This document shows, in pieces, positions 12,802 through 19,809 of a stretch of DNA of 32,909 bases; position 1 is the first letter of the stretch, and every line of letters starts with the position of its first letter. Below the pieces are notes generated by a model that did no database searches, was not told where the DNA came from, and worked only from the letters and a program-made list of their open reading frames with translations. The stretch covers positions 1 through 32,909 of the forward strand of contig SUVY01000027.1 in NCBI GenBank assembly GCA_015061775.1, read 5' to 3'. The position numbers were made by a program, and so were the translations under genes. The stretch is from Lentisphaerota bacterium (lineage in GTDB: Bacteria; Verrucomicrobiota; Lentisphaeria; Victivallales; Victivallaceae).

Positions 12802-13251
12802 GTGAAAAAGATATTTTTACTTGCCGTTTTTGCGGCGCTCTTCCTCTCAGCAGGATGCGCGTCGCGCCAGCTCAACATCGGAGTTTACCGCAATGTTGAC
12901 TCATCGCGCGAAGATATCGCTATGGTATTTGAAGACCATATCATCATGCAGGTCAAGAGCCCGGATAACTCCGAAGGCTCTCTCGCCTACTGGACATGGG
13001 GAGGCAAATACTCCATCGCCGACGACGGAACCATCATCCTCGATATGGACAAGGAGACCCGCCGCCGCTGGAACTTTGCCTTCAACATCGTCAGCCGTCA
13101 GGACGGTATCGTAGTTAATGAGCTCGCCACCGACAACGGAGTGGTTCTGCGCTACGAACTGCCCAAACGCCGCAGCCAGGGCGGAAATCCGGTTCCGGTC
13201 GGTTCCGGCGGCGTCAATCCGCGTTATCAATTTCCGTCTGAAGACCTTTAA
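12802..13251 (+). CDS. Small lipoprotein of unknown function
   Basis: A 149-residue predicted lipoprotein with signal peptide MKKIFLLAVFAALF and a relaxed lipobox LSAGC, lipid-bearing Cys at 19. The mature domain is mainly beta-strand (IAMVFEDHIIMQV, GGKYSIADDGTIILDMD) and looks like a small barrel or sandwich resembling lipocalin-like 'copper/META' type folds, without a recognised family. The tail is Gly/Pro-rich. The start is GTG at 12802, set by an AAAGGA site nine bases upstream. It follows leuS by 23 bases and precedes the channel-like gene by 29. That context suggests it is the outer-membrane piece of the envelope module that follows (inference). Confidence 0.75.
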   Translation: MKKIFLLAVFAALFLSAGCASRQLNIGVYRNVDSSREDIAMVFEDHIIMQVKSPDNSEGSLAYWTWGGKYSIADDGTIILDMDKETRRRWNFAFNIVSRQDGIVVNELATDNGVVLRYELPKRRSQGGNPVPVGSGGVNPRYQFPSEDL

Positions 13252-13280
13252 GCAATCAACTGTCAGGAGCATTGACATCT

Positions 13281-13823
13281 ATGAAAAAGAACAGCGGTCG
13301 TTTTATTCCCGTAGTACTCGTTATACTGGCCGGCATCGCGTTTATCTATGCGATGAATCATTGGTTTGAGACTTCAAGCACGCTGCGAGCCCTCTTTTCC
13401 GGAGGTGACAGCGGAGCTGTGCTCGGTGAGGTGGGAGAGAACTCCGAAGCGAGTCTCGCCATGCGCGGAAGAGTCGCCGCCAAGGTGTCAATGATGATCT
13501 TTGCCGTCATCACCGTACTGCAGTTTGTCGCCTTCGCCGTCGGAGCAGTCGTCGTCGGAGGCATCAGAAAGCATGAAGCAAAAGCCGAACAGAAGCTCCA
13601 GATGCTCGACAATGCCGAGATCTTTTTTGATGTTCCGCTGTACGTCGGACTTTTCGGAACGGTTTCCGCGTTCCTCGTAATGACCTTTTCTCCGCAGAGC
13701 AGCCGTCTCATCGCGTACAGCTCCACTCTGATCGGAATCATCTTCAGTCTGGTGCTGCGCCTTATCATGCAGTATCCGCTGCGCCGCCGGCTCATCAATG
13801 AAGCTGCGGAGGAAAAGAAGTGA
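13281..13823 (+). CDS. Four-helix membrane protein resembling MotA/TolQ/ExbB channel subunits
   Basis: A 180-residue inner-membrane protein with predicted helices at about 8-26, 70-95, 117-136 and 142-163. Helix 3 holds VGLFGTVSAF, the GLxGTV signature of MotA/TolQ/ExbB proteins, whose Thr lines the ion path. Helix 4 (AYSSTLIGIIFSLVL, then RRR) resembles their last helix (ALxTTxxGL pattern). A charged cytoplasmic loop lies between helices 2 and 3. The usual large cytoplasmic domain is missing, so the protein is smaller than typical family members. The ATG at 13281 is preferred to the TTG at 13272, because AGGAG at 13265-13269 is too close to the latter. It overlaps the next gene by four bases (GTGA). 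Similarity is by motif only; function as an ion channel is inference. Confidence 0.65.
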   Translation: MKKNSGRFIPVVLVILAGIAFIYAMNHWFETSSTLRALFSGGDSGAVLGEVGENSEASLAMRGRVAAKVSMMIFAVITVLQFVAFAVGAVVVGGIRKHEAKAEQKLQMLDNAEIFFDVPLYVGLFGTVSAFLVMTFSPQSSRLIAYSSTLIGIIFSLVLRLIMQYPLRRRLINEAAEEKK

Positions 13824-15529
13824 ATAAAGCCATCCTGATCGTCATCTGCGACTTTCTGGTCTCAGCGATGCTCTCGATGATGACCGGAATGGTCGCCGCT
13901 CACTCCGGAGGTACCGGCGTCGGACTCGACGAAAAGACCACTCAGATGCTGCTCGCCGAGCTCGCCAACAAACACCGCGAGATCGAGGAGCTCCGCAAAA
14001 AGCTCAGTCTCGCTGCCGACAACGCCGAAAACGCCGCCGAGCTGCGCCGTCTGGCAAAACTGCTTGCCGAGAACCGTCTCCAGCAGGAGACACTCAAAAA
14101 ACAGCTCAATGCCAAGCCGGAAAATACCGGAGAACTTACTCCTGCCGAGCTCAAAAAGATGCTCGACGAAGAGAAGCTCAAACGCTATACGGTGGAGGTC
14201 GAACTCAAAAGCCGTTCAGAGGCTCATAAGGATGCCAAGGCAGATCTTGCCGCATCGCGCAAGGAGGCTTCCGAGCTGAGAAAAGATCTCTCTGAGACCT
14301 CAAAAAATATGCGCGAGATATCCCGCGACTATGCCGATGCCAAAAGTAAACTCGCCGGAACTGAGCAGGCTCTCGAAGCTGAAAAACGTATCGCCAAAAA
14401 AGCCGAATATGACCTTCAGCGGGCGACCGAAGCCCTTACCGATATGACCCGGCGTTTCAATGACGCCAATCAGCAGGCGCAGCGGGCGCAGAACGACCTT
14501 GCCTATATGGGCGGAAAGATCCAGTCCGTCGAGCGCGATGCCGCTGATTTGCGCGGTCAGAATGCCAAGATATCCCGCCAGCTTGCCCAGCTTCAACTCA
14601 ATTACCGCGATGCCCAGCGCCGCAATGATGAGCTGAGCCGCACGGTAAAGACTGCGGTGCGCGATTTGACCAACACCAAAGTCACCCTCGAAAAGACCCG
14701 CAAGGAGGCTCAGAAAAACCGCGAGAGCGCAGTGCGTTCCGAGGCGAAGCTCGAGGCTGCGCGCCAGCAGCTTGATGACGCAAGAAAACTGCTCAAGACC
14801 GATGTGCTGGAACTCTACTCCAAGTCCGCCGTCGCGCTCAAGATCACCCTTGAAGCCAAAAATGTCTTTACCGGCATGAAGGCAGGAGGCACTTACTATC
14901 TGCCGGTCGTCGATTTCAACGGAACTCTGCGCATCGCCGGAAGTTTTGCAACTCTCTGCGGAGATGGTGAAAAACCGGTCATCTTCAACCGCGTGACCAA
15001 TGTCGGATACCTTGCCGTACCCGCTGCCGACCCTGCAGGAAAAGGCAAAGTGCTCTCCGGAGTGATCGACGTGCTCAAGTCCGAGCCCCGCGCCTCTTCG
15101 ATCAGGTGCGGAAAAATTCAGGGAATAACTCCCCTCAAATTCCTCGACCGCGCGAAACTGCGCAAACGCGGATTCCAGCAGCTTGTCCTCTTCAAAAACA
15201 GCGGAGGCAAACGCGATGTGGTCGATCTTGAAAACCGCTGCTCGCTCGATCTGGCCGAAGGCGGAGACTACCTCTTTATCCGCAATGACAGCCGCAGTGT
15301 GCGCGCCGCGCAGGGCGATATCGTCCTGACCCGCGAGGGAGAATTCGTCGGAATCGTGGTCGGGGTTGACCGCATGGGAGAGCGCGCAAGACTCTATGTT
15401 TTCCCGGCGGAAAAATCCTGGAGCGATACGGTCGAAGTTCCTTTCGAGAAACGCAACGGCTCATACGAAGATTTTACTGCGCGGGTCAAGCAGGTCAAGG
15501 ATATGATATTCAAGGCCGAAAAGAGATAA
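13820..15529 (+). CDS. Membrane-anchored coiled-coil protein with a protease-like C-terminus, candidate MotB/ExbD-like partner
   Basis: The 569-residue product starts at GTG 13820, overlapping the previous stop, with a GGAGGA site just upstream. Residues 4-26 form one membrane helix containing Asp11 in ICDFLVSAMLSMM. This resembles the ADFMT-type helix of MotB, where the Asp carries protons. Residues 37-326 are an almost unbroken Lys/Glu/Ala/Leu coiled coil. Residues 335-560 form a beta-rich domain ending in GDIVLTREGEFVGIVVG, like the last strands of trypsin-fold proteases. The GDSG Ser motif is replaced by AQGD, so it is probably inactive. Topology would place coil and C-terminus in the periplasm. 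Pairing with the upstream four-helix protein is suggested by translational coupling. The stator-like role is inference. Confidence 0.65.
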   Translation: MNKAILIVICDFLVSAMLSMMTGMVAAHSGGTGVGLDEKTTQMLLAELANKHREIEELRKKLSLAADNAENAAELRRLAKLLAENRLQQETLKKQLNAKPENTGELTPAELKKMLDEEKLKRYTVEVELKSRSEAHKDAKADLAASRKEASELRKDLSETSKNMREISRDYADAKSKLAGTEQALEAEKRIAKKAEYDLQRATEALTDMTRRFNDANQQAQRAQNDLAYMGGKIQSVERDAADLRGQNAKISRQLAQLQLNYRDAQRRNDELSRTVKTAVRDLTNTKVTLEKTRKEAQKNRESAVRSEAKLEAARQQLDDARKLLKTDVLELYSKSAVALKITLEAKNVFTGMKAGGTYYLPVVDFNGTLRIAGSFATLCGDGEKPVIFNRVTNVGYLAVPAADPAGKGKVLSGVIDVLKSEPRASSIRCGKIQGITPLKFLDRAKLRKRGFQQLVLFKNSGGKRDVVDLENRCSLDLAEGGDYLFIRNDSRSVRAAQGDIVLTREGEFVGIVVGVDRMGERARLYVFPAEKSWSDTVEVPFEKRNGSYEDFTARVKQVKDMIFKAEKR

Positions 15530-15532
15530 AGC

Positions 15533-17839
15533 ATGACTGACAGCAGGTTCAATTTTCCTGGAGATGCGACAGTCCCGGCGGGAAGTGCCGCCGGTGACAG
15601 CCAGCTCACCGAAGCGGAGCTGCGCGAACTGCTCGGAGACATTTCCGGAGAAAACTTCTCCGAATACCTCGACCGCAAACTGCTCGGTCTCGGAGGTATG
15701 GGAGCGGTGTATGCCGGAACCGAGCCCGGATTGAACCGTACAGTCGCAGTCAAGGTGCTGCGTCCCCAGTACCGTTACAGCGCAGAGCGCATCGAGGCGT
15801 TTATCCGCGAAGCGCGCCTGACTGCAAAGATCGACCATCCCAATATAATTCCGGTGCACCGTTTCGGAGTGTTTGACGATGCCGGAGTTTATTTCACCAT
15901 GCGCCGTATTGCAGGGCACACCCTCAATACCATAATATCCCATATACGCGACGATCACGAAGATTACCGCAGACGCTATTCTCTGCGCCGCCTGATCGGA
16001 ATTTTCCTCTCAGCGTGCAACGCCGTCGCTTTCGCTCACAGCCGCGGAGTCATGCACGGAGATCTCAAACCCGGCAATATCATGGTCGGCAAATACGCCG
16101 AAGTGCTCGTTATGGACTGGGGACTTGCCTACGATACCTCCGGAGAGGGAGATGAAGCTTTGCGAAAAGCCCTCGTTCCGGAAAAAAAAGCAAAAGATGC
16201 CGGCGATATCGGAGGAACTCCGGCGTTCATGGCTCCCGAGCACGTCACCGGAGAGTTTTCAGTTCCCGACCGCAAGAGCGAAGTCTATGCGCTCGGAGCC
16301 ATTCTCTACTCCATCCTCACCTTGCAGAAGAGCCCCTTCGAGACCAGCTCCCGCCGGAATCTTGCCCGGCGCATCGTTTCCGGAAAACCCGTATTGCCCC
16401 GCCGTGCCGCTCCGAAGTTCTGGGATACTCCGCGCGAACTTGAGGCTATCTGTCTCAAAGCTATGGCGGTCAAACGCGAAGAGCGGTACAATGATGTCGA
16501 AGAGCTTATCCAGGATATAATGAACTATCTTGACGGTTATCCGGTCAAGGCATACAGTCCGCTGCTCATCTACCGTCTTCAGAAACGCATACTCCGCAAG
16601 CCTCTGATACCGGCACTGGTGTTCGTGCTTCTGCTGGTGAGCGCCTTTTTCTATGAGTGGAACATGATAGAGCTGCGGAGAGACCGTCAGATACGCTATG
16701 AGCTTGCTGTCAGTTCAGCAAATCAGGGAGTGAACCTCAGCCGCATTTTGCGCCGTTACTGCCGGACTTTGCGCAGCGAGCATATAGATACCGAGCGCCG
16801 GCGTTCGCTTGAGCAGCGTATTGCGGGAGTGATAATCCGCACGGCAAACGTCTATGATTCCGCGCTGGGAAATCTTGAGGAGCTTCCTCTTTCTGAAGTG
16901 ATGGTCGATGTCAAACTGATCATCTATGACCTCATCATGACCGGAAACGCCCTCAATACCCACAGCCTTGCCTGTGAAGCGTCCACGAACTTCAGATATT
17001 CCGGAAGCATACTCACCGCAGATTTTCTTTCCACTCTGGGCAGACACAAAGCACTCACCGACCTTATGGTCAAAAACAACCCCTATATGAGCAGTATGTA
17101 CGGCAAGCTTTCAGGCAGCAATGCAAGACTGCGTCTTCCGGAAAGTTTTGCTGCTTCCGGCTGGAAGCTCGATGTGCTCGACAGCAATTTCAAAGCGATT
17201 CCGGCTCCGTTTGTTGACGGCAGCGAGATATGTCTTGATGCGGGGAGATATATCCTCAGATTCAGCCATTTGAAATTTGGAGTTTTCCACACACCGCTGC
17301 AGCTCAATACCGGAAACATTTACGTTTGCGACTTGAGGTTTCCGGAAAAGCCCATTCCGGAAAATATGGCATATATTCCGGGGGCGGAAGATGAAAACTT
17401 TGTGCGCGGATTTTTCATCCGCCGCAAGGAGGTCACGATAGCTGAGTACATCGAGTTCTGGAAGAGCCTTCCTGAAAACGAGCGCAAGTCGCGGCAGGTG
17501 CGTTTTTTCTCGCACGAAAAAGACCGTTTTCTGCCGCTCTGGGATAATGGCGGCAGCGTGACAGCTCCCTATCGTCCGGACTCTCCGGTATTCGGAGTCT
17601 CTCTCGAACAGGCAGAGGAGTACTGCCAATGGCTTTCCGCAAAACTCCATAAAACAGTGCGTCTGCCTGAGACCGGAGAGTGGGAGCGGGCGGCATACAG
17701 TTTCGGCAGCAAAAATATTTCGGCATACGCCGTCGGAGACCTCAACCGCAGCATACGTGAGCTGCGGGCTTCCAAGTCATCGGGGCTCTACGGACGCAAT
17801 ACCGGATTCAGATACGTTATGGATATGGAACAGAAATGA
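15533..17839 (+). CDS. Transmembrane Ser/Thr protein kinase with a C-terminal formylglycine-generating-enzyme-like domain
   Basis: A 768-residue PknB-type kinase. The Gly loop is GLGGMGAVY (52-60), the ATP Lys is K74 (VAVK) and the helix C Glu is E93. The catalytic loop is HGDLKPGN (175-182, D177), the metal motif is DWG (195-197) and APE is 234-236, so the kinase looks active. One membrane helix (about 357-374) separates this cytoplasmic part from a region of about 230 residues. A terminal FGE-sulfatase-like domain (about 605-768) follows, with the family pattern FGVSLEQAEEYCQWLSA and RLPETGEWERAAY. The catalytic Cys pair of true formylglycine generators is absent, so it probably serves for binding. 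The gene sits three bases after the coiled-coil gene and overlaps the ABC-F gene by ATGA. It probably signals for the preceding envelope proteins. Confidence 0.88.
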   Translation: MTDSRFNFPGDATVPAGSAAGDSQLTEAELRELLGDISGENFSEYLDRKLLGLGGMGAVYAGTEPGLNRTVAVKVLRPQYRYSAERIEAFIREARLTAKIDHPNIIPVHRFGVFDDAGVYFTMRRIAGHTLNTIISHIRDDHEDYRRRYSLRRLIGIFLSACNAVAFAHSRGVMHGDLKPGNIMVGKYAEVLVMDWGLAYDTSGEGDEALRKALVPEKKAKDAGDIGGTPAFMAPEHVTGEFSVPDRKSEVYALGAILYSILTLQKSPFETSSRRNLARRIVSGKPVLPRRAAPKFWDTPRELEAICLKAMAVKREERYNDVEELIQDIMNYLDGYPVKAYSPLLIYRLQKRILRKPLIPALVFVLLLVSAFFYEWNMIELRRDRQIRYELAVSSANQGVNLSRILRRYCRTLRSEHIDTERRRSLEQRIAGVIIRTANVYDSALGNLEELPLSEVMVDVKLIIYDLIMTGNALNTHSLACEASTNFRYSGSILTADFLSTLGRHKALTDLMVKNNPYMSSMYGKLSGSNARLRLPESFAASGWKLDVLDSNFKAIPAPFVDGSEICLDAGRYILRFSHLKFGVFHTPLQLNTGNIYVCDLRFPEKPIPENMAYIPGAEDENFVRGFFIRRKEVTIAEYIEFWKSLPENERKSRQVRFFSHEKDRFLPLWDNGGSVTAPYRPDSPVFGVSLEQAEEYCQWLSAKLHKTVRLPETGEWERAAYSFGSKNISAYAVGDLNRSIRELRASKSSGLYGRNTGFRYVMDMEQK

Positions 17840-19809
17840 TCGATTTTCAGAATATTTCAAAACTTTACACAGGAGCATACATCCTCAAAGATGTTTCGTT
17901 CCGCATAAATTCGGGCGAGCGAGTCGGTATCGTCGGTCCGAACGGAGCAGGAAAAAGTACCATCTTCAATATCATTACAGGCGCAGTTGCTCCGGATGGC
18001 GGCAGCGTGGTCATTCCCAAAGATCACCGCGTCGGCATCATGGCGCAGAATATCAGAAACAGCGACCTCGACCGCAAACTGGTGGAGTTTACTTCAGACG
18101 CCATACCCGAACTCAAAGAGTTCATGCGCGAACTTCACGATATCGAGAGCCGCATGGAGAGTGCCGGAGCTGAAGAGCGCACCTCCCTTCTGCGCCGCCA
18201 CGGAGAGCTGCAGACCAAAGTCGAGCACCTCGGAGCCTACCGCCTCGATCAGGAGGCTAAAGAGGCATTGACCAATCTCGGATTTGCTCCAGAGTCTTTC
18301 GATAAGCCGCTCTCACAGTTTTCCGGAGGCTGGCAGATGCGCGCTGCTCTTGCGCGGGTATTGATATCCAATCCGGATATCCTGCTGCTCGACGAACCGT
18401 CAAACTATCTTGACGTTCCTGCCGTCGAGTGGCTCTGCCGTTTCCTCGGAGGCTTTGCCGGAACGCTTGTACTCATCTCCCACGACCGTTTCCTTCTGCG
18501 CAAACTCGCCTCCGTCACCCTCGAGGTGAACAACGGAGAAGTCACCCGCTACGCCGGAAACTACGACTACTACCGCCGCGAACGCGAGAATCGTCTCAAA
18601 ATGCTCGAAGCCGCCTACCGCAACACTGAGCGCAAGAAGGAGCAAATGGAGCGGGTCATCGACCGTTTCCGCGCCAAGAGCACCAAGGCGGCGCAGGCAA
18701 AGAGTATGCAAAAGAAGCTCGACCGCATCGAGGATGTGACGCTTCCGGATGCGCTCAATTACTCAGGAGCCATCCGTTTTCCTGCGCCTCCTGACTGCGG
18801 AGTAGAGGCTTGCAGGTTTGAAGATGTCGCATTCGGATACTCTCCGGACAAGACCCTCTGGAGCGGAGTCTCTTTTGAGATCGCCGCCAAAGAGAAGGTC
18901 GCCTTCATCGGTTACAACGGTATGGGAAAAACCACTTTGCTCAAGCTCATGGTGGGCAAACTTGCTCCGACTTCCGGACAGGTGGTGCTCGGACACCACA
19001 TCGTTGTCGGATATCAGGCCCAGGAGTTCGGCGACGTGCTGGCTCCGGAAATGAGCGTATATGACGCCGTAAAGAGTGCGCTTCCAGCCGGAGCATCCAC
19101 CGCCAATCTGATGAACGTGCTGGGCTCTTTCGGATTTTCCGGAGATGACCGCGACAAGCCGTGCAAAGTTCTTTCCGGAGGTGAAAAGATACGTTTGCAG
19201 TTTGCCCGTATCTTCGTCAATCCTCCGAACCTTCTTGTTCTCGATGAGCCGACCACCCACCTCGACGTGGCGGCGCGCGAGCTGCTCCAGCAGGCGTTGT
19301 GCAGTTTCCATGGAACGGTTTGCATCGTAAGTCACGATATCGAGTTTGTCCGCAACGTGGCGCAGACCATCATCTGCATCGAGCCGCACAGGATCAAAAA
19401 ATACTTCGGCAACTACGACTACTATCTGGAAAAATCCCGCGAACTTCAGACCGATACCGTTACTCCCGGACGGGTGAGTGCCGGAAATCAATCCGACAAC
19501 TCCATGAGTGCCAAAGACCGCCGCCGTGCCCGGGCTCAGGCGCGCAGCGCAGTATCAGGAAAGCTGCGCGAAGCCAAACAGCTTCTGGAAAAACTTGAAA
19601 AGACCCTCGACACTCTTGCCGATCAGAGAAAAGTCCTGCTCGCCAAGATGTCCAGCGGCATGAAAGTGGATTTTGAAGCTCTCAACAAGGAGCTTGCCGT
19701 TGTGGAAAAAAATATCTCCGAAGCGGAGACATCATGGGAAGAGTGTGCCGTCGAACTTGAGGCACTTAAAATAGAAAATGACCGTATAAACAGTGAGGTT
19801 GGAAGATGA
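17836..19809 (+). CDS. ABC-F family ATPase
   Basis: A soluble protein of 657 residues with two ABC ATPase domains and no membrane segment, as in ribosome-associated ABC-F proteins. Domain 1 has Walker A GPNGAGKST, signature FSGGWQMR and Walker B LLLDEPSNYLD. Domain 2 has GYNGMGKTT, LSGGEKIRLQ and LVLDEPTTHLD. The linker between them (about residues 240-300) is the charged helical hairpin that reaches into the ribosomal E/P site. The C-terminal 110 residues form a second coiled coil, as in Uup/YdiF-type members. Likely roles are rescue of stalled ribosomes or other translation quality control. It overlaps both neighbours by ATGA, so it is translated with the kinase. Subfamily assignment would need a phylogeny. 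Confidence 0.92.
   Translation: MIDFQNISKLYTGAYILKDVSFRINSGERVGIVGPNGAGKSTIFNIITGAVAPDGGSVVIPKDHRVGIMAQNIRNSDLDRKLVEFTSDAIPELKEFMRELHDIESRMESAGAEERTSLLRRHGELQTKVEHLGAYRLDQEAKEALTNLGFAPESFDKPLSQFSGGWQMRAALARVLISNPDILLLDEPSNYLDVPAVEWLCRFLGGFAGTLVLISHDRFLLRKLASVTLEVNNGEVTRYAGNYDYYRRERENRLKMLEAAYRNTERKKEQMERVIDRFRAKSTKAAQAKSMQKKLDRIEDVTLPDALNYSGAIRFPAPPDCGVEACRFEDVAFGYSPDKTLWSGVSFEIAAKEKVAFIGYNGMGKTTLLKLMVGKLAPTSGQVVLGHHIVVGYQAQEFGDVLAPEMSVYDAVKSALPAGASTANLMNVLGSFGFSGDDRDKPCKVLSGGEKIRLQFARIFVNPPNLLVLDEPTTHLDVAARELLQQALCSFHGTVCIVSHDIEFVRNVAQTIICIEPHRIKKYFGNYDYYLEKSRELQTDTVTPGRVSAGNQSDNSMSAKDRRRARAQARSAVSGKLREAKQLLEKLEKTLDTLADQRKVLLAKMSSGMKVDFEALNKELAVVEKNISEAETSWEECAVELEALKIENDRINSEVGR

Follow-up and report, generated by a model that had tools for sequence, protein, structure and literature searches.

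To our knowledge, only a handful of ion-driven motors of the 5:2 type have been described, namely Mot, Ton, Tol, Agl, Gld and Zor. MotAB and ZorAB share an ion site in which Ser/Thr residues of the channel subunit form a ring around a membrane Asp of the partner (PMC11890865); the same two-subunit layout is found in Mot, Exb, Tol, Agl and Gld (PMC9389320). In ZorAB, the channel subunit supplies the rod as its cytoplasmic tail, and peptidoglycan is bound by ZorB (PMC11890865). GldL, a channel subunit of two helices, uses its own Glu49 (PMC8986121). Here we analyze a 32,909-nucleotide stretch of DNA from a Lentisphaerota bacterium (contig SUVY01000027.1 of assembly GCA_015061775.1; the whole stretch is referred to as the window), in which two adjacent genes encode a four-helix protein and a single-helix partner. 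These are called chan (the product of the gene at 13281) and cc (the product of the gene at 13820). Because the pair has the same two elements as MotAB and ZorAB, strictly conserved, co-encoded and in the same predicted orientation, we consider it probable, at roughly 0.6, that chan and cc form an undescribed stator-like, ion-driven complex of the MotA/ExbB–MotB/ExbD type with a novel periplasmic arm.

The initial annotation of the window had joined four genes, those for a lipoprotein, chan, cc and a membrane Ser/Thr kinase, into one envelope-spanning module. The four open reading frames (ORFs) lie where it had placed them, and the ORF coordinates give the same gaps of 29, -4 and 3 bases. When one genome per species of the order Victivallales was scanned, 33 chan loci were obtained, including that of Victivallis vadensis DSM 14823, and cc lies directly downstream of chan in every one of them, with a 4-base overlap in 32. 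A distant set of 72 fetched loci represents 71 chan places (L075 and L202 coincide), nearly all in other families; in 69 of these places chan is immediately followed by cc, and both exceptions (G337 and G343) encode a cc homologue elsewhere in the genome. The kinase gene adjoins cc in 28 of the 32 Victivallales loci long enough to show it and is not there in L003, L007, L013 and L014; in L003 and L014 an ABC-F gene stands directly after cc with no kinase between. A search of 18 loci by tblastn found no kinase beside the pair outside the host's family, to which the only positives, L079 and L080, belong. The lipoprotein gene lies close to chan, at 26 bases, only in the closest relative, L002. 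It follows leuS, 395-518 bases before chan, in L021, L023, L024 and L033, is 3.5 kb from chan in L004, and was not found nearby in the remaining Victivallales loci. From these locus-by-locus adjacency counts, the core unit is the two genes chan and cc, not four; the kinase is a family-level accessory whose only link to the pair is synteny, and the lipoprotein is a neighbor, probably outside the complex. As the lipoprotein sits beside chan only in L002 and otherwise tracks leuS, it was rejected as a component of the complex. The conserved synteny on which the initial annotation had staked its module thus holds for chan-cc, and fails for the lipoprotein and, beyond the host's family, for the kinase. 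Neighborhoods of the distant pairs, read by eye and with most neighbors unannotated, contain no obvious common third partner.

An AlphaFold2 (AF2) model of chan has helices at residues 5-31, 56-97, 113-133 and 138-179 (predicted local distance difference test (pLDDT) score of 83), and this model, together with a positive-inside reading, predicts four helices in the N-in/C-in layout of MotA. Within the order, the block FFDVPLYVGLFGTVSAFLVMTFSPQSSRLIAYSSTLIG of chan is almost invariant in the alignment, and across the phylum the invariant residues are Gln81, Asp117, Leu120, Tyr121, Gly123, Ala145, Tyr146, Ser148, Gly152 and Leu171. Position 127 is Thr nearly throughout and Ser in two loci (L070 and L071). 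The GLFGTV motif (chan residues 123-128) and the CDFLVSAM segment with its Asp (cc residues 10-17) are as first annotated. The GLFGTV and SSTLIG blocks of chan and Asp11 of cc are the most conserved parts of two proteins that diverge elsewhere, and the conservation of the GLFGTV block and Asp11 is, judged from the alignments, far above chance.

Searches of chan against Pfam, NCBIfam and PADLOC gave nothing significant. In a profile-profile comparison, chan was set against MotA/TolQ/ExbB proteins from its own phylum: GLFGTV fell on GLFGTV and SSTLIG on TTxAGL at pairwise p values of 0.003-0.004, as against 0.33-0.41 for reversed-profile controls. A deeper chan profile compared with 33 membrane-type families ranked the MotA and TolQ/ExbB families first and second (pairwise p 0.0016 and 0.0032), with GxxGT and (S/T)T..G in register and a weak absolute probability of 8-16%. 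With the phylum-wide profile, all ten of the best non-chan ORFs returned by hmmsearch were MotA/TolQ/ExbB, the background being the ORFs of the fetched loci (about 1,560 non-chan, 41 of them MotA/TolQ/ExbB). The positives in these last two tests are mutually related, so that the ranks overstate their independence, and the background is small. For these reasons, distant homology of chan to MotA/TolQ/ExbB is favored by the sequence comparisons but falls short of proof. Beyond the motifs in register in the third and fourth helices, chan resembles MotA/TolQ/ExbB (PF01618) in its predicted cytoplasmic ends and in being paired with a gene for a single-helix partner. It differs in that many distant families have chan as the C-terminal portion of a larger protein, about 520-570 amino acids (aa) long. 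No Pfam match was found in the long N-terminal region of these larger proteins (L065-L069, L072, L075, L077, L078, L081 and L082), which is probably an additional periplasmic domain.

The first 27 residues of cc form one hydrophobic helix. In the phylum-wide alignment of this N-terminal segment, Asp11 and Met1 are the sole invariant residues, and overall identity to the window protein drops to 15-20% in distant families. Asp occupies position 11 in 104 of 104 sequences checked, the two relocated cc included; most of the distant cc genes were recognized by an Asp-containing pattern, but the denominator is chan loci, each locus or genome of which gave an Asp11 protein, and the 33 Victivallales cc genes came from tblastn, in which no such pattern was used. 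The charge is +2.1 on the N side and -1.1 over the following 15 residues, and the N side is the more positive in 95 of 102 sequences. Because of this bias, cc is predicted to be oriented N-in and C-out, with its coiled coil in the periplasm. The coiled coil spans about 290 residues and has coiled-coil-type matches to SMC/Rad50. Length of cc varies from 445 to 756 aa (the latter in L022), mostly through coiled-coil insertions in alignment columns 150-400.

The C-terminal 248 residues of cc were modeled by AF2 with a pLDDT of 92 and a predicted template modeling score of 0.91. Foldseek matched this model to the protease domains of HtrA1, HtrA3, DegP and DegQ at E values of 1.5e-5 to 1e-3, and 42 PDB matches, with HtrA1, HtrA3 and DegP leading, were obtained at E<=1e-3. 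No conserved catalytic His or Ser was found among 101 sequences (the best His column reaches 41% and the best Ser column 52%), in agreement with the initial description of this end as trypsin-like and Ser-less. Since the trypsin-like fold conserves neither residue, and shows no conserved His-Asp-Ser triad with GNSGG, the domain is a pseudoprotease with an HtrA/DegP-like trypsin fold, and an active protease was rejected. It also departs from HtrA, DegS and DegP in capping a coiled coil. In active HtrA proteases one strand has the sequence GNSGG; by our reading of the sequence rather than by superposition, the invariant Gly499-Asp500 of cc would lie just before this strand, at the start of the GNSGG region.

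Set beside MotB/TolR/ExbD (PF13677, PF02472), cc has the same single, predicted N-in helix with one invariant Asp and a C-terminus that is periplasmic by charge bias. It is unlike them in its very short N-terminus, in its lack of significant profile similarity, and in bearing a long coiled coil and an HtrA-like domain rather than an OmpA-like or ExbD domain. Zorya ZorAB likewise combines a membrane-Asp partner, a Thr/Ser-bearing channel helix and a long rod; in our pair, however, the rod belongs to the putative axle protein cc, and the pair is single-copy, with no occurrence found in plasmids or in viral contigs. PADLOC gave no ZorA or ZorB match for chan, and its only ZorA3 match fell on a distant cc (L068), in the coiled coil. 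GldL/GldM of type IX secretion and the gliding motor also pair a channel subunit with a bitopic partner that has a long periplasmic arm, but chan has four helices and the invariant acid sits in the partner. We know of no motor of this kind with an outer arm composed of a long rod and a dead protease. The phylum-wide pairing and the motif register support the first reading of a MotA/TolQ/ExbB-like subunit with a single-helix, membrane-Asp partner.

By analogy with such motors, several chan subunits, perhaps five, would ring a cc dimer. Ions would reach Asp11 of cc beside the Thr/Ser on the GLFGTV helix of chan, and cc would shift relative to chan when Asp11 is protonated or binds an ion. The motion would then be relayed by cc, via its periplasmic coiled coil, to the catalytically dead HtrA-like domain, which may bind a partner in the envelope. 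The neighboring membrane Ser/Thr kinase of the host's family may regulate the pair or read it out.

Several observations weigh against an ion-driven complex. PF01618 is absent from the matches of the window chan at E<=10 and from the families listed for 22 diverse members, no chan sequence significantly matched a related PDB chain, and chan has a tiny cytoplasmic loop in place of the large one of MotA/ExbB. The confident ExbB/MotA structural match that the initial annotation had looked for did not appear: many TolQ, MotA, ExbB and PomA chains were among the top 50 Foldseek matches of the chan monomer, with a best E value of about 0.45, low template modeling scores and none significant. The cc helix did not rise above background when compared with ExbD/MotB helices (ExbD ranked 5 to 1188 of 1593), and no PF02472 or PF13677 match is listed for cc; as its helix profile is inseparable from background, homology of cc to ExbD/MotB is not claimed. 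A coiled coil of this size, if straight, is long for a normal periplasm, and the length range of cc fits a simple ruler across the periplasm poorly.

The weak likeness of chan to MotA/TolQ/ExbB would suit an envelope sensor rather than a motor, in which the HtrA-like pseudoprotease senses a periplasmic signal and passes it along the coiled coil to the membrane and through chan, with the kinase where present, to the inside, Asp11 being structural or gating and no work being driven by ions. HtrA-like domains are known peptide sensors, as in DegS, and a membrane kinase does adjoin the pair in the host's family. Such a sensor nevertheless appears unlikely to us, since conservation is highest at Asp11 and in the GLFGTV/SSTLIG blocks, and since none of the other families tested has the kinase next to the pair. 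The four-gene alternative, a lipoprotein, channel, axle and kinase making up one envelope-spanning complex coupled to phosphorylation, draws on the tight packing in the window, on the kinase next to cc in 28 loci, and on the order leuS-lipoprotein-chan-cc-kinase in L002, L021, L023, L024 and L033 (lipoprotein and chan being 395-518 bases apart in all of these but L002). It is very unlikely, given that the lipoprotein tracks leuS and in most of the 33 loci was not found close to chan, that linkage of the kinase is confined to the host's family and is lacking in four Victivallales loci, and that the FGE-like domain of the kinase is missing or degenerate in many relatives. Least probable is a passive scaffold or tether, with chan as the anchor of a cc rod holding membrane and wall apart and no ion coupling; a long, length-variable coiled coil with a catalytically dead end domain is what such a tether might have, but a buried Asp and a Gly/Thr motif kept across the phylum would be needless for it.

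Of 388 genomes sampled in the phylum, 125 gave a match to the chan profile, never more than one each; these include 56 of the 58 from the host's family. No chan was found on viral contigs or plasmids, and this, with the single copy per genome, led us to judge a Zorya or mobile-element origin unlikely. That the pair is single-copy and broadly retained suggests housekeeping in the envelope and not defense. The host genome (2.7 Mb, with the window on contig C81) also holds canonical MotA_ExbB/ExbD pairs of the TolQR/ExbBD type at C27 and C74, and chan-cc is therefore no replacement for Tol/Ton. A third, weak MotA_ExbB match in this genome (L085, G000:C60:8012-8275, 25.7 bits, in a 327-aa frame) differs from both canonical pairs and may represent an unusual channel protein, Zorya-like or otherwise. 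We advance only tentatively the broader proposal that chan-cc is a phylum-wide, vertically kept family of ion-driven rotary motors distinct from Mot, Tol/Ton, Gld and Zor, with a pseudoprotease-tipped rod on the axle, to which the Victivallales acquired a kinase.

No described family in Pfam, NCBIfam or PADLOC covers chan-cc, in keeping with the initial statement that no system of such composition was known, and no description of the pair was found in a library of open-access papers, a scope outside which most subscription papers fall. If the ion-driven reading is correct, the pair would be a further motor family, unannotated in Pfam and NCBIfam and single-copy in a large part of the phylum. 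Its dead-protease arm would be a new output for the 5:2-type motor class, and would indicate an as yet unknown process in the envelope of Verrucomicrobiota/Lentisphaerota.

Table 1. Features of the chan-cc locus and its neighbors (positions in the window).
Feature	Position	Strand	Description
Lipoprotein gene	12802..13251	+	149 aa from GTG; lipobox LSAGC; among relatives, adjoins chan only in L002, elsewhere after leuS or not nearby
chan, core gene 1	13281..13823	+	180 aa from ATG; four-helix, MotA/TolQ/ExbB-like subunit
GLFGTV motif of chan	13647..13664	+	Residues 123-128, predicted third membrane helix; aligns with TolQ/ExbB GLFGTV and MotA GMVGTL
cc, core gene 2	13820..15529	+	GTG start, 569 aa; bitopic, putative axle subunit; 4-base overlap with chan stop
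Asp11 codon of cc	13850..13852	+	Middle of sole membrane helix; invariant in all 104 sequences checked
cc coiled coil	13931..14794	+	Residues ~38-325; predicted periplasmic (charge bias); SMC/Rad50 matches
cc C-terminal HtrA/DegP-like trypsin-fold domain	14807..15526	+	Pseudoprotease; AF2 and Foldseek
Gly499-Asp500 of cc	15314..15319	+	Invariant pair (alignments); 99-100% in 101 sequences
Membrane Ser/Thr kinase, accessory	15533..17839	+	768 aa; kinase ~15674-16501, helix ~16604-16666, degenerate FGE-like outer domain 17390-17740
ABC-F ATPase gene	17836..19809	+	Same operon-like run; overlaps kinase stop

The kinase and FGE-like domains assigned to the fourth gene by the initial annotation were both recovered in Pfam, at E values of 4.8e-32 and 4.4e-14. 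Its match to the PknD model has an E value of 2.3e-63, below that model's cut-off. With the catalytic Lys, Asp and Asn invariant in the alignment and a membrane helix present, the sequence identifies the protein as a bacterial membrane Ser/Thr kinase of the PknB/PknD type. Among relatives, L021, L023, L024 and L033 lack the FGE-like domain, and in others it is degenerate.

Beyond the ABC-F gene, the run of overlapping genes continues with a SASA-type acetylesterase (19806), gpsA (20594) and a LacI-type regulator (21583). The ABC-F gene itself has a synteny with the pair in the host's family about as tight as that of the kinase, and it persists without the kinase in L003 and L014. On the other side of the pair, the lipoprotein belongs to a small family whose genes stand 18-38 bases behind leuS in five relatives (L002, L021, L023, L024 and L033).

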